A stretch of 64,000 nucleotides of DNA from Thermosynechococcaceae cyanobacterium MS004 (lineage in GTDB: Bacteria > Cyanobacteriota > Cyanobacteriia > Thermosynechococcales > Thermosynechococcaceae). Location: positions 1 through 64,000 of the forward strand of contig JAKRSB010000095.1 of NCBI GenBank assembly GCA_022402525.1. The letters run 5' to 3'. The notes beneath the pieces are model-generated. The model was not told the DNA's origin. It did no database searches and worked only from the letters and a program-made list of their open reading frames with translations. Positions 36,892 to 52,590 of the stretch are shown piece after piece (the first letter of the stretch is position 1; each line of letters starts with the position of its first letter). Made by a program: the position numbers and the translations under genes.

Positions 36892-38565
36892 CTAGAAATT
36901 AAACGTGGTACGCACCACGCCTACGATAACGTCTGAGTTTGCAGCATTATGATTGGGATTCAAGAGGTAGATAATCCCTGGAGTAATGGTGATGTTGTTG
37001 TTAATCGGAAACTGATAGAGCGCCTCCAGGTGAATAGTGGTATCGGGATCCCTGCGAGCCGCGATAGAATTGCTAATCGTCTTTGGAGGTACGCCGACAA
37101 TAATTCCCCCCATAGCCCCTTTCATGAATAGGTCTGGCAAGGCGAGGTTAACGGCACCATTGATGATGTCTGCATTAGCCGTGCTGTTGATCTGATCCGC
37201 GAGGGTATAGCCAAACCAACCGCCAACCGCCAACTTGGGCGTAATCCGAAACGATCCTTGTAGGCCAAAGGAGTTTGAGGTCAATGGACGATTGATGCCG
37301 CCATTCACGAAGGGAATATTGGCGAAGGGACTGCCCACGCCGTAGCGCAAATTGCCGTCCGGGGCATAACCACGCACATAGGTGAGCGCCACCTCGGCTG
37401 CTTTGCTAGGCTTGAACGTGAGCTGAGCAAGGGCGCTGTAGGTGCCGCCAAAGAGTCCGCCATCGGTAGCACCCCCAGGCAAGGCGATCGCAGTGGAGCT
37501 ATTAGACCGAGCCGCCAAATAGCCTAAATCAAAGCGAAACTTGGGCGAAATTTGGTAGCTTGTCCCAATCCCCGCCGTCGATCCTCCTGCAATGCCAACG
37601 GTTCCAATCCGGTAGATGGGGTTGCGCTCCCCAAAGAAAGAGAGTGCGCCTCTCGCGCCACCGCCCCCTTCAAAAAATGGGTTAACAGTGGAGGTGTAGT
37701 AGTGGTGGAACCCGCCGTTGGCAAAGACATCGATTTTGAGCTTTTTGCCTACTGGAAACATGTAGTCTAGGCGATCGATCACGAGGCTATTGCCTGTGTT
37801 GCCCGTATCCAAGGCGAGACGGGTCATGTTGGTGCCCGCTGCATTATTAAAGTTGACTTCACGATTAGAAGCCTGAAGCCGAATGTAAAGACGATCCTTA
37901 CCCGTGAAACTGGTGAGTAAATTGAGGCGAACCCGATTAGAGAGGGTGACGCGGGAATCAATATTTGCGCCTGTGCCCGCTGCTGCACCTACTCCAGCAA
38001 CATCGCCAAACACATCAGCGAGGGCAAAAATGGCATCCCCCTGAAGTTTGGTGGTGGTCGAAAACTGCTGGGCTTCTAAGGTGGCGGTTCTTGCCTCTAG
38101 GCCATCGACGCGCCCTTTGAGGGTAGCTAGCTCTGCTTTGAATTCTTCCTGAAGTGCTTTAACGGCCTCAAGGTCTTCTTTGGTGGCAAAGCGATCGCTA
38201 ATTTGGTCTAGGCAAGCATTGAGCGCAGCGGCCAGTTCGTAACGAGTGGCAGCACGATTTCCGCGAAACGTACCGTCTGGATAACCTGCAATACAGCCAT
38301 AGCGCTCTACCAAAGACTGCAAAGCCTGAAACGCCCAGTCTGTAGGCTGTACATCTGACAGTTGGGAGACGGAGGTAACCTGAGCGACGCTTTCTTCCTC
38401 CTGGGTCGGAATTAAAGGCGTCAGGTGCATCGTTGTGCCAGTCGCCTGAGTTGAAGACTCCTCGATTTGTCTAACGGATAGGCTTTCGCCTGCCGATACG
38501 CTATTGCTAAATACAACGAACATTGCCGAGCTTAAAATAAGTCGGCTCCAAAATTGAGTAGACAT
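36892..38565 (-). CDS. Iron-uptake porin (SLH domain plus OprB-type barrel)
   Basis: 557 residues from ATG 38565. Order: signal peptide (LILSSAMFVVFSNSVSAGE); SLH domain (QLSDVQPTDWAFQALQSLVE, RYGCIAGYPDGTFRGNRAAT, RYELAAALNACLDQISDRFA); coiled coil (KALQEEFKAELATLKGRVDG); and an OprB-like beta-barrel ending IIYLLNPN...VGVVRTTFNF with the terminal Phe of outer-membrane proteins. Cyanobacterial porins of this kind pass inorganic ions including iron, and the SLH domain ties them to peptidoglycan. The leader has GGTGTGAGGA seven to ten bases before the ATG, combining the ribosome binding site with a potential Yfr1 sRNA target. A paralogue lies at 50,656. Confidence 0.93.
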   Translation of the reverse strand: MSTQFWSRLILSSAMFVVFSNSVSAGESLSVRQIEESSTQATGTTMHLTPLIPTQEEESVAQVTSVSQLSDVQPTDWAFQALQSLVERYGCIAGYPDGTFRGNRAATRYELAAALNACLDQISDRFATKEDLEAVKALQEEFKAELATLKGRVDGLEARTATLEAQQFSTTTKLQGDAIFALADVFGDVAGVGAAAGTGANIDSRVTLSNRVRLNLLTSFTGKDRLYIRLQASNREVNFNNAAGTNMTRLALDTGNTGNSLVIDRLDYMFPVGKKLKIDVFANGGFHHYYTSTVNPFFEGGGGARGALSFFGERNPIYRIGTVGIAGGSTAGIGTSYQISPKFRFDLGYLAARSNSSTAIALPGGATDGGLFGGTYSALAQLTFKPSKAAEVALTYVRGYAPDGNLRYGVGSPFANIPFVNGGINRPLTSNSFGLQGSFRITPKLAVGGWFGYTLADQINSTANADIINGAVNLALPDLFMKGAMGGIIVGVPPKTISNSIAARRDPDTTIHLEALYQFPINNNITITPGIIYLLNPNHNAANSDVIVGVVRTTFNF

Positions 38566-38573
38566 GCAAAAAA

Positions 38574-38583
38574 TCCTCACACC
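38574..38583 (-). promoter_or_regulatory. Predicted Yfr1 sRNA target over the ribosome binding site
   Basis: GGTGTGAGGA is complementary to UCCUCACAC, the conserved unpaired loop of the cyanobacterial sRNA Yfr1, known in Prochlorococcus to repress porin mRNAs. The same ten bases occur before the second porin. Confidence 0.55.
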
Positions 38584-39447: not shown

Positions 39448-40212
39448 ATGACTCATAGGAAGCGCGAAATTACGGTTCTAGAAGTTCGTTTGATTCAGCG
39501 ACAGCGGGTTCAGCAAAGCTTGGCGATCGCCGCTGTGGCCGCGCTGATTTTGTCGAGCTGCGATAGTCCAACAGTTGAGCAAACTGAAAACACACCCGTT
39601 GATGCCGTATTTTACGAAACCGCCCAGCAGTGCGAAGCAGATATTAAGCGACAGACCCAAGCCTATCAGACTCAACTGGCCGCCCAAAAGCGGGGTGAAC
39701 TGAAACAAACGCCCACCCCGCCTGTCATGAAGCCAGAAGACTGTGCCCCGCAGATCCTGGCTGCCCGCCAAGAGCATGAAAAAACGGCCCCTTTCTACGC
39801 CAATCAGCAAGATTGCCAAGCGGAAGGAGTGCAGTGCGAGCCAGTTCGTAATTTTGCTGTAGACAATTCTGCGGCCGGGTACTCCTCCTCCTCTGGCTAT
39901 CGTCCGGTCTATGGCGGCACCTACTTTTATCCCTACGTTTCCCCTAGCTACAGCTATGTGAACTATGGTGGCTCCTACCGACGGGTCTATGCGCCCCGAC
40001 CCGTCTATGCCAGCAAAACCCCTGGCCAAGTTGTGACTCCCTATGGCCGCACGGTGGCAAAAACCACGACGGGACGGGTCAGTGTGCCGCAGCATACGAC
40101 GGTGCAGGCCCCCAGCCGTCCCTCTGGTACCTCGGCACGGGGCACCATCTCAGGACGCAGTAAATTTGGGTTTGGTTCAACATTTAAGAGTACGGGGCGC
40201 GGTGGGAAGTAA
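39448..40212 (+). CDS. DUF1190 (YgiB-like) lipoprotein
   Basis: 254 residues. The signal with lipobox AALILSSCDS (Cys about residue 38) predicts a lipid-anchored protein. The DUF1190 core follows: DAVFYETAQQCEADI, MKPEDCAPQILAARQEHEKT, PFYANQQDCQAEGVQCEPV, with four paired Cys. The C-terminal half is Tyr/Ser/Gly-rich (SYSYVNYGGSYRRVYAPRP) and ends in basic Gly/Arg/Ser low complexity. In E. coli ygiB lies next to ygiC; here too the next gene, 3 bp on, is a ygiC homologue. Function is unknown. The short spacing shows an operon. Confidence 0.85.
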   Translation: MTHRKREITVLEVRLIQRQRVQQSLAIAAVAALILSSCDSPTVEQTENTPVDAVFYETAQQCEADIKRQTQAYQTQLAAQKRGELKQTPTPPVMKPEDCAPQILAARQEHEKTAPFYANQQDCQAEGVQCEPVRNFAVDNSAAGYSSSSGYRPVYGGTYFYPYVSPSYSYVNYGGSYRRVYAPRPVYASKTPGQVVTPYGRTVAKTTTGRVSVPQHTTVQAPSRPSGTSARGTISGRSKFGFGSTFKSTGRGGK

Positions 40213-40215
40213 CCG

Positions 40216-41565
40216 ATGAAAGCTCTCAAAGTGTTACGGCGGCCTCACTGGCAGCAACATATTCGAGACAATGCCTACCAGGCCGATGTGCTCAGCGATG
40301 CCCAACAGAAATACTGGATTGAGGCACTCCCCCAGCCTTTTGTGATTCAGTTTGATACCCAGGAAGAGGAGGCGATCGCCCAAGCTACTGAGCAGATCTG
40401 GGCCATGTGTGTTGAGTTTTTGGACTGGCTTTTTACGGAAGATTCCCCAGGAGAAGTGGATCAGCGTCTAGGGCTCCTCAAAATTCGGCGGGACTATTGG
40501 CCCGCGATTAAAGCAAGCTGGGATCGGGTGGAGCCGGTGGAAGACCTGACCCTCATGACGCGGTTTGACCTCGTGGTGAACGAAGCGGGAGCTATCAAGC
40601 TCATTGAAATTAATGGTGAAACGCCACTCTTGGGGGCAGAAACGGTCTACCAGTGGAACTGGTTGGTGGACTATCAGCGTAACCATCAAAAAAGTATCCT
40701 GCCCTTACCCAGTGATGCCCGCCAATTTAATGAGTTCTGGGAGCAAATTGCAGGGCAGTGGCGCTGGATTGCTGAGTCCTATCCGCTGCGGGAAAAGGGG
40801 ATTTCTTTTTTAGTGGATGAGCGGCTCGAAGAAGACCTCGAAATGGCAATGCAGCTCATTCAAATTCTGCACGATGAGGTGGATCCAAGCATCTACACCC
40901 AGATTGTCTATCTGCGGGGGCTAGAGGATGACCAGGGTCATCCGATTCAGCGGGGGCTGGGAGTTGATGAAGAGGGGTACTTTGTCGATCATGTGAACGA
41001 TCGCATTCCGATTCTGTGGAAAATGTATGACTGGTCGGATATCCAAAACGATATGGCCAATGCTGGCTGTACGACGGCGATCGCCCAGCGTCTAGTGCAA
41101 GGCGACATGAAGGTCTTAGAACCCCTCTGGAAGCAGGTATTGTCTAACAAGGGTGCGATGGCGCTGATGTGGGCGCAATTTAAGGACTCGATCTATGCTC
41201 CCTATTTGCTGGAAACTTACTTTGACCATGATGTGTCTCCAGTGGCCACAAAGCTGATGCTGAATATGCACGTCAAAAAGCCCCTGTTAGGGATGGAGGG
41301 AGTGGGCACCTCCATTGAAGTGGGCGTGGGAGCCCTGGAGCAGCGGCCGACGCTGGGCTACGGGGCAGAGGGCTATATTTACCAGGAATATATAGAGCTA
41401 CCCCAAGCCTTTGGTTATCACTATATGGTGGGGAGCTGGGTGATTAACGATGAGCCTGCCGGCATTATTCTGCGGGGCGATACTTCGCGCATTACAGGGC
41501 GGCACTGCTTAATTATTCCGCATATCATCTCGGATGATGGGCTATATATTCCAGCTTCTCCATGA
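40216..41565 (+). CDS. YgiC-like ATP-grasp protein, glutathionylspermidine synthase family
   Basis: 449 residues, covering only the synthetase (ATP-grasp) domain of glutathionylspermidine synthase, without the amidase domain. Recognisable blocks are MTRFDLVVNEAGAIKLIEIN followed by GETPLLGAE, VDHVNDRIPILWKMYDWSDI, NKGAMALMWAQF, and GYIYQEYIELPQAFGYHY with a late ATP-site element. Members join an amine to a carboxylate with ATP. For YgiC-type proteins the substrate is not known to me, and glutathionylspermidine itself is unlikely in cyanobacteria. It is coupled on both sides: DUF1190 three bases upstream, and the diiron-like protein beginning within or just after its stop. Confidence 0.88.
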   Translation: MKALKVLRRPHWQQHIRDNAYQADVLSDAQQKYWIEALPQPFVIQFDTQEEEAIAQATEQIWAMCVEFLDWLFTEDSPGEVDQRLGLLKIRRDYWPAIKASWDRVEPVEDLTLMTRFDLVVNEAGAIKLIEINGETPLLGAETVYQWNWLVDYQRNHQKSILPLPSDARQFNEFWEQIAGQWRWIAESYPLREKGISFLVDERLEEDLEMAMQLIQILHDEVDPSIYTQIVYLRGLEDDQGHPIQRGLGVDEEGYFVDHVNDRIPILWKMYDWSDIQNDMANAGCTTAIAQRLVQGDMKVLEPLWKQVLSNKGAMALMWAQFKDSIYAPYLLETYFDHDVSPVATKLMLNMHVKKPLLGMEGVGTSIEVGVGALEQRPTLGYGAEGYIYQEYIELPQAFGYHYMVGSWVINDEPAGIILRGDTSRITGRHCLIIPHIISDDGLYIPASP

Positions 41566-48258: not shown

Positions 48259-48632
48259 AGGAGGGCCGAATAGTAACCCCTCTATGCTGGCCAAAAAAAA
48301 AGCAGCCCCCCACCGCGAATTTACGGAATTTGGATCGGCTGATCTGGATAAATACTTTTTGCTTAATACTGAGTGCTCAGCGCTCTGGGCATTCCGTGTA
48401 GACTTTAAAAAAGAAAACCCTTGGGCGTCTGTCCGTGTTTCGACTCCAAGGGCTTCTTTATTAAACTTTTGAATGCACTCTTCACACATTCAAACAATAG
48501 CAGAATTACCGAAAAACACAACGCCCCTATCGTGACACTTTAAAAATTGGCCTACTCCCCTTGACCCATGACGCGAAGACTTTGCGCTACGGTATTTTAA
48601 ACCGGAAGTTTCCAGCCCAGTGGCACTCAGGC
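48259..48632. other. Spacer before sfsA
   Basis: No convincing gene; a poly-A tract (48,292-48,301) and CTTTAAAAAAGAAAACCC near 48,404 are the only notable features. Confidence 0.35.
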
Positions 48633-50655: not shown

Positions 50656-52590
50656 CTAGAACCTAAATTGAGTGCGAATGTTACCCACAAAGACCGTGGG
50701 GTTAGTACCAAAGTTATTGGGGTTAATAATGGCGTAAAAAGCCGGAACCACCGCAATATTATCTGAGATGGGATAGTAGTAAGAAGCCTCCACCTCATAC
50801 TGGGTCGCACCATCCCCATTCCCTGATCGCAAAAATCTGCGCCCTCCCAAGTAATCTTGAGGCACCACAAACGAAATTGTGCCAAGGGCACCTTTTTTGA
50901 TTAAATCTGGAAATGCGACCCCAGCCTGAATCGACTGTACATCCAATGAGCCACCCGCACGACCTGCCGTGGTTGGCGCAATTTTAGTTGTGCCGTAAGA
51001 GTAGCGCCCAAATAGCCCAAACCCTTTTGTAACCAACCAATCAAAGTTGGCAACAAAGGTATTAGCGATCGCATTATTGAGTCCGCCCCCAACGCCATCA
51101 TCCACAAAACCATAGGGTAAGGGTTCTCCCACGGCACCGCCTATTAATCCAGCGCCATTGGCCTGGAGCAATGTACGAGCGTACAAAAACCGAAGGTTTA
51201 CAGATTTGGTCGGCGAGAAGTCAAGTTGACCCACTAGCGTATTATTGCCGCCAAATAAGTTTTTGGTTGCCGTATTAAAGTTGGGCAAAGCAGGGTTTAA
51301 AAATTCAGTACTTTCCGCTAAATAAGCTGCCGCTAAGCGAATCTGCTTGGTAGGTCTCCAAATAATAACCGTTCCAGCACCTCGGTCTACCGCACTAAAT
51401 AAGGTGCTGCCGCTTGAGTTAAAGCTGCCTGCTCCTGTCAAGAAGTTGGTAAAGCGATTATTGTCAAAATAGCGATAAGTGTTTATACGTGCCCCAACGA
51501 CAATCTGCAGATCTTTAGTCGCCGGAAAGCTATAGAACAGTTCGCGCAAGGTAACTGTATTGGCTGAGAGCGTTCCGGTTTGATCGGTGATTGGCGTTCC
51601 CCAGCTATTGAAAAAGCCTGAAGAGACAAATGCATTCGCAGGAGAGCTTCCATTCCCAACAGCGAGCTGCGTTACGAGAGAATCTTTACCCGTAAATGAA
51701 GTGTTAAATGTTAGCCAAGCGTAATAACTAAAGGTGACGTTCGGATCGCTAGAGGAGACCCTTGTGGGCACTCCACCCACTCGCGGGGGTGCTACATTTA
51801 CGTTTCGACTGAGGGGGCGTTCTGCGAGTACGCTTCGACCCGCAAATGCACCTGACATATTAAACCAGACTAATCCCGAAAGTTTCGTAGTGGTGGAAAA
51901 CTGCTGGGCTTCTAGGGTGGCAGCTCTGGCCTCTAGTCCATCCACCCGACCTTTGAGGGTTGCCAATTCTGCCTTAAACTCTTCCTGGAGCGCTTTGATG
52001 GTCTCAAGGTCTTCTTTGGTGGCAAAGCGATCGCTAATTTGGTCTAGACAAGCATTCAGTGCAGCGGCCAGCTCATACCGAGTTGCCGCCCGATTCCCGC
52101 GAAAGGTGCCGTCCGGATAGCCTGCAATACAGCCGTACCGCTCCACCAAGGACTGAAGCGCCTGAAATGCCCAGTCTGTGGCCTGTACATCAGAGAGCTG
52201 AGAGACAGAAGTCACCTGCTCAAATAAATCGGAGGAGTTGTCAGACACATCGCTGACTAGGGGATCGGACAAGCCAATATCTGCCAAGCGCGGAAGCTCT
52301 ACAGGGAGACTAGGTGGAGCTGGTTCGCTTTGAGCGAGCTCGCCTATGGCTGGTTCGCTGATAACTGCGTTGTTCGCAGATAACGCGCTGGATAAACTCG
52401 ACTCCTCTGGCAGGCTAGGTGGCAGGAGCGCATGCGTTTCTGGAGCCGCTGCCTGACCCAATATCTCTGGAACAACTTCTGGCTGACTCTTCAACGCTTC
52501 TTCTGCAGAAACTCGCTGAGCCAACAGTACCGCACAGGCAACAAAACCCGTGCTCAGGGCAAGCCTGAGTGACTTAAAAGCTATGAACAT
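50656..52590 (-). CDS. Iron-uptake porin (SLH domain plus OprB-type barrel)
   Basis: 644 residues. Signal peptide (LRLALSTGFVACAVLLAQRV SAEEA region), a Pro/Ser/Glu-rich spacer of about 100 residues, then SLH (QLSDVQATDWAFQALQSLVE; RYGCIAGYPDGTFRGNRAAT), coiled coil (IKALQEEFKAELATLKGRVD) and OprB-like barrel ending with VPAFYAIINPN and NIRTQFRF. The SLH plus coiled-coil block is almost identical at protein level to that of the porin at 36,892, while codons differ freely, so selection rather than recent conversion maintains it. The barrels differ greatly. It carries the same GGTGTGAGGA leader element. Confidence 0.93.
   Translation of the reverse strand: MFIAFKSLRLALSTGFVACAVLLAQRVSAEEALKSQPEVVPEILGQAAAPETHALLPPSLPEESSLSSALSANNAVISEPAIGELAQSEPAPPSLPVELPRLADIGLSDPLVSDVSDNSSDLFEQVTSVSQLSDVQATDWAFQALQSLVERYGCIAGYPDGTFRGNRAATRYELAAALNACLDQISDRFATKEDLETIKALQEEFKAELATLKGRVDGLEARAATLEAQQFSTTTKLSGLVWFNMSGAFAGRSVLAERPLSRNVNVAPPRVGGVPTRVSSSDPNVTFSYYAWLTFNTSFTGKDSLVTQLAVGNGSSPANAFVSSGFFNSWGTPITDQTGTLSANTVTLRELFYSFPATKDLQIVVGARINTYRYFDNNRFTNFLTGAGSFNSSGSTLFSAVDRGAGTVIIWRPTKQIRLAAAYLAESTEFLNPALPNFNTATKNLFGGNNTLVGQLDFSPTKSVNLRFLYARTLLQANGAGLIGGAVGEPLPYGFVDDGVGGGLNNAIANTFVANFDWLVTKGFGLFGRYSYGTTKIAPTTAGRAGGSLDVQSIQAGVAFPDLIKKGALGTISFVVPQDYLGGRRFLRSGNGDGATQYEVEASYYYPISDNIAVVPAFYAIINPNNFGTNPTVFVGNIRTQFRF

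Follow-up and report, generated by a model that had tools for sequence, protein, structure and literature searches.

Porins decide which nutrients enter the cyanobacterial cell. Yfr1 is an abundant cyanobacterial small RNA of 54-69 nucleotides, whose gene is located between guaB and trxA in most genomes. In enterobacteria, the Hfq-dependent small RNAs MicF, MicC and RybB cover the start region of outer-membrane porin mRNAs; they work in a similar way, but are unrelated to Yfr1 and thus do not represent the same system. Porin repression by Yfr1, for which an earlier note on this DNA had named Prochlorococcus as a precedent, is published for two organisms, as far as the accessible parts of the respective papers describe it. 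In Nostoc PCC 7120, Yfr1 represses reporters of the OprB porins alr0834 and alr4550 and of eight other genes via its conserved motif, and the sites of the repressed targets are mostly located at the translation initiation region (PMC6974561). In Prochlorococcus MED4, Yfr1 represses the porins PMM1119 and PMM1121, given in the accessible text as the only two such porin targets known (PMC6778093). The same source reports that Yfr10 of Prochlorococcus carries the Yfr1 motif, and Prochlorococcus strains devoid of Yfr1 were therefore dropped as a natural knock-out comparison.

The locus analysed here resembles the Nostoc targets alr0834 and alr4550 with regard to Yfr1 itself, the conserved motif, the OprB type of the porins and the position of the site just before the start codon. 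It differs in lineage and in some of the other target genes (see below). For the Nostoc porins, repression was shown with reporters in E. coli; for the present locus, the analysis shows that Yfr1 is encoded, that the site is complementary to it and that the site is conserved at porin starts. Likewise, it has in common with MED4 that the Yfr1 motif is directed against porin leaders, but there two porin targets are described, whereas here all eight OprB porins with a readable N-terminus have a site. Since repression of porins by Yfr1 is published for both organisms, the mechanism and the target class are known, and the addition made here is breadth. A phylum-wide survey of Yfr1 sites at porin genes was not found in the open-licence literature without its supplements, and we claim no priority.

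Two porin genes of the window and the site before their start codons

The window, the whole stretch of 64,000 nucleotides that was analysed, contains on its minus strand the genes for two porins with SLH and OprB domains, referred to as p1 (36892-38565, 557 amino acids; Pfam PF04966, E 4.5e-52, and PF00395, E 1.2e-7) and p2 (50656-52590, 644 amino acids; PF04966, E 3.8e-22, and PF00395, E 5e-7). Both domains lie over the Pfam cut-off in either protein, and the two proteins are 41% identical from residue 62 onward. With the iron-selective Slr1908, an SLH/OprB porin of Synechocystis linked to iron uptake (PMC8707739, accessible text), p1 and p2 share a likeness at the domain level only, and their designation as iron porins in the earlier note is not supported by the present results.

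As the earlier note had claimed, two identical sites precede the porin start codons. An exact copy of GGTGTGAGGA is located at 38583-38574, separated by 8 nucleotides from the ATG of p1 at 38565-38563, and a second one at 52607-52598, separated by 7 nucleotides from the ATG of p2 at 52590-52588, all on the minus strand. Both proposed Yfr1 pairing sites overlap the respective ribosome-binding site. The wording "both porins" in the earlier note needs correction in one respect, since p1 and p2 are indeed SLH and OprB porins, but represent only two of nine OprB matches in the genome. Apart from the ten-mer and one chance 7-mer, the 150-nucleotide leaders of p1 and p2 have nothing of note in common. 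With one mismatch, GGTGTGAGGA occurs four times in the window versus 3.1 times expected by chance; thus, its frequency is ordinary, and the unusual part is that both exact copies are found at porin starts. One caveat is an in-frame GTG at 38580 within the p1 site, which represents an alternative start of p1. Divergently from p1, a DUF1190 gene directly followed by a glutathionylspermidine-synthase-like gene is located on the plus strand (39448-41565).

Yfr1 of this genome and its predicted pairing with the porin leaders

The genome harbors Yfr1 at C32:33179-33244 (L001 1479-1544; Rfam RF01116, 54.9 bits versus a gathering score of 38), and the sequence ACTCCTCACAC occurs a single time in the 4.93 Mb. 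The flanking open reading frames, read by eye, are GuaB-like and thioredoxin-like, which corresponds to the order guaB-yfr1-trxA. In the predicted fold of the RNA (-28.9 kcal/mol, z -3.7), a hairpin flanks the unpaired motif on either side, and the published definition of Yfr1, the undecanucleotide ACUCCUCACAC unpaired between two stem-loops (PMC2190773, accessible text), applies to it. Consequently, the objection raised in the earlier note that the genome might lack Yfr1 falls away. Its description of the pairing partner as an exposed loop holds in part: UCCUCACACC is unpaired and pairs with the site, but the motif forms the linker between two stem-loops and not a loop.

The base that follows the undecanucleotide is a C, and pairing with the porin leaders therefore spans all ten bases. 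With either site, the unpaired UCCUCACACC is able to form an uninterrupted duplex of ten pairs, and the duplex energies for the unpaired part of Yfr1 are -19.7 kcal/mol (p1) and -20.0 kcal/mol (p2). In support of the earlier note, p2 and p1 rank first and second, i.e. lowest in energy, among 196 open reading frames of at least 120 amino acids, which were taken from the window plus ten stretches of 20 kb each (200 kb) and have a median of -8.6 kcal/mol. The third rank is held by a BacA/UppP homolog, a gene of the peptidoglycan pathway (-17.4 kcal/mol). Opening the mRNA sites of p1 and p2 is predicted to cost 4.9-6.4 kcal/mol.

Conservation at porin starts and rival explanations

When the motif was simply counted upstream of every ATG in 58 relatives, it looked enriched compared with the reversed control, yet permuted controls were similar or higher in the compared rows. 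In the genome itself, the motif was counted 8 times before an ATG versus 5 and 16 times for the permuted GAGGA controls TGGTGAGGA and GGTTGAGGA. Because permuted controls are as frequent, raw genome counts are uninformative and were replaced by a comparison of porins with their neighbours. For this purpose, a site was defined as at least 7 contiguous nucleotides of GTGTGAGGAGT within 30 nucleotides upstream of an in-frame ATG. The best 80 public loci matching p1, mostly from Nostocales, yielded 88 porin open reading frames, 7 of which were excluded because the match started after residue 120 or because an in-frame ATG was lacking. The nearest named relatives of the porins include metagenome-assembled genomes labelled Thermosynechococcus sp. 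and Acaryochloridaceae.

A site of at least 7 nucleotides is present in 71 of the remaining 81 porins versus 1 of 230 neighbouring open reading frames of the same loci, and one of at least 8 nucleotides in 29 of 81 versus 0 of 230. After clustering at <60% identity, the proportions are 25/33 for porins and 1/158 for neighbours. Thus, the ten bases are not common before unrelated genes, the second objection that the earlier note had put forward against itself. The sites lie on the sense strand 0-21 nucleotides before the ATG (median 13). When permuted 11-mers were applied to the 81 porins, 2 of 1000 equalled the real one, and the high-scoring permutations keep GTGTGAG, GGTGTGA or close parts. 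As the Yfr1 motif is invariant, there are no compensatory changes to count.

The site is likewise found across the phylum. In a draw of 98 genomes, 44 of which encode OprB porins, it precedes 26 of the 30 genes read as the best porin per genome, some pairs of which are near-identical, and 23 of 39 further paralogs, which were hand-picked from the porin list of the draw and hence not random; 14 of these paralogs lack the site, and for 2 no ATG is within reach. Taking both categories together, 10/81, 4/30 and 16/39 porins of the three sets are without a 7-nucleotide site or a reachable ATG. Of the 44 genomes with OprB porins, 42 were found to contain Yfr1; the two exceptions are G138, whose sister G140 has it, and G088, an assembly with 9% contamination. 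G088 has an OprB gene that lacks an in-frame ATG within the initial 60 codons of the open frame, and no conclusion is drawn from this genome. In G029, a small genome that is Prochlorococcus-like by reading, two porin-like genes in tandem each have GTGTGAGGA upstream of the ATG; by eye, these genes resemble the validated MED4 targets. In the genome of the window, the eight porins with a readable N-terminus have 7-9 contiguous nucleotides of the Yfr1 complement before the chosen ATG. In the porin gene on C60, the matching GTGTGAG adjoins the ATG, and a separate GGAGGA is located further upstream.

We consider it probable, at roughly 0.83, that the ten bases are a Yfr1 pairing site and that binding of Yfr1 blocks the start of translation and holds porin output down. 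The unpaired UCCUCACACC of Yfr1 would pair with GGUGUGAGGA. As this stretch overlaps the ribosome-binding site, Yfr1 positioned there would stop the ribosome from initiating on the porin mRNA, resulting in a lower output of the porin; some decay of the mRNA may follow. A site of this kind is present at nearly all SLH/OprB paralogs, which would be set together. In our judgement, the earlier note made a correct prediction of a published kind of regulation, for which the comparative support is strong.

It is conceivable that the ten bases are a Shine-Dalgarno sequence and nothing else, their likeness to Yfr1 being a by-product of the CCUC common to Yfr1 and the 3′-end of the 16S rRNA. GAGGA is a usable ribosome-binding core with a suitable spacing of 7-8 nucleotides, and Yfr1 variants with a scrambled linker that keeps CUCCUC still bind, with mean energies of -14.3 and -13.5 kcal/mol. 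Equal binding was reached by 4 of 200 scrambles for p1 and 5 of 200 for p2; taken by itself, the energy is thus no more than moderate evidence once the shared core is allowed for. However, GTGT has no role of this kind, yet it is the sole enriched prefix before GAGG, present in 26 of 81 porins as compared to 2 for the next-best four-base prefix and 0 of 230 neighbours, a comparison that already largely refutes a mere Shine-Dalgarno sequence. Moreover, GTGTGAG, typically as GGTGTGAGTGAG, is kept without a following AGGA in about 40 porins, the majority of which come from heterocystous species, and in heterocystous porin leaders the sequence flanking the site has diverged. By reading, GGTGTGAGTGAG can form 8 pairs with Yfr1, followed after a bulged U by 3 more possible pairs. 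As many heterocystous species keep GGTGTGAG without a Shine-Dalgarno sequence, ribosome binding alone is not a sufficient explanation, and we regard it as very unlikely to account for the site. We give slightly less weight still to a conserved target of an RNA- or DNA-binding protein at porin starts, to which the Yfr1 match would be secondary. Conservation by itself names no partner, and protein layers do exist, since in Anabaena the yfr1 promoter is bound by FurC, which also influences many of the targets of Yfr1 (PMC10936207, accessible text). Nevertheless, the attachment of the site to the ATG on the sense strand is unlike that of a transcription factor site, and three Yfr2-family RNAs of the genome carry 9-11-nucleotide versions of it, which fits RNA pairing.

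The outcome of binding might also differ from repression, in that Yfr1 activates the porin mRNAs or is neutral, for instance by stabilising them or by acting within a Yfr2 network. For this, amiC2/alr0093 provides an example, the one of eleven Nostoc targets tested that is raised by Yfr1 in the accessible account (PMC6974561). Its site is located far upstream of the start codon, though, while the other targets are repressed and nearly all have sites just before the start (PMC6974561), and the p1 and p2 sites overlie the ribosome-binding site; activation or neutrality thus appears improbable to a high degree. Repression by Yfr1 is, in our judgement, the reading to prefer. A wider proposal, for and against which we see the chances as evenly balanced, is that Yfr1 control of the whole SLH/OprB family is ancient and near phylum-wide among photosynthetic cyanobacteria, with GGTGTGAGTGAG kept in heterocystous lineages where the Shine-Dalgarno core is gone, that Yfr2 RNAs, as permanent mimics of the porin start site, titrate Yfr1, and that the ratio of Yfr1 to Yfr2 sets the permeability of the outer membrane. 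Should one small RNA set nearly all porins across the phylum, this would help to account for the rare loss of Yfr1 and for the near-constancy of its eleven bases, which would be held in place jointly by many porin leaders, by some genes of the peptidoglycan pathway and by Yfr2. The site would further give ready lists of candidate targets for any cyanobacterium.

Yfr2-family RNAs and further sites in the genome

The Yfr2 family has been linked to the Cyano-1 motif (PMC8400943), and in Prochlorococcus MED4 Yfr2 keeps Yfr1 off its targets (PMC6778093), according to the accessible parts of both sources. The window contains a Cyano-1/Yfr2-family RNA on the minus strand (48406-48491; Rfam RF01701, 44.1 bits versus a gathering score of 41), at a distance of about 2.2 kb to the 3′-end of p2. 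Its 5′ part comprises a near-copy of the site, GTGTGAAGAGT (48487-48477), with one mismatch to the full Yfr1 complement. Two other Yfr2-family RNAs of the genome carry GTGAGGAGT and an exact GGTGTGAGGA, the latter in an RNA that scores 37.5 bits, below the gathering score. It is likely that the RNA in the window serves as a Yfr1 decoy in this organism; by sequestering Yfr1, RNAs of the Yfr2 type that contain these bases could lift the block on translation. The sub-threshold RNA with the exact GGTGTGAGGA (G000 C13; L163 1501-1571) is located 26 bases before a fluoride riboswitch (L163 1598-1675; RF01734, 57.6 bits).

GTGTGAGGA occurs 20 times in the genome versus 10 times for the reversed control. 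Six copies sit 2-13 nucleotides upstream of a plausible start, namely those of p1, p2, a third OprB porin on C150, murI, a Bmp-family substrate-binding protein and an N-terminus at the end of C132; of the remaining copies, the antisense strand of yfr1 and a Yfr2-like RNA account for one each, and 12 are elsewhere. The murI-like gene (L015 1501-1509; G000 C135) has a GTG start and a Yfr1-complementary site with -23.6 kcal/mol, and an uppP/BacA-like gene (L032 1745-2578, minus strand) has a strong Yfr1-complementary site before its GTG start. Both sites are in keeping with a cell-envelope regulon, and murI and uppP may join the same Yfr1 regulon in this genome. By contrast, the orthologs of murC and mraY, which are Yfr1 targets in Nostoc PCC 7120 according to the accessible literature, were checked in this genome and show weak complementarity at most, with no clear site. 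The envelope theme may therefore be kept while individual target genes change.

The N-terminal fragment with which contig C132 ends (12714) comprises 123 amino acids, looks secreted and has GTGTGAGGA before its ATG; a Pfam search with these 123 residues gave no match. Contig C39 starts (29) with the C-terminal part of a cut-off OprB porin, and the C132 fragment may be its missing part, in which case the gene would have been split by the assembly. Finally, at one copy of GTGTGAGGA outside long open reading frames (L006 1501-1509; G000 C41:3475), inspection by eye suggests a hairpin (CTCAACT...AGAGTTGAG) that has this copy in its loop, which may represent another small RNA or chance.
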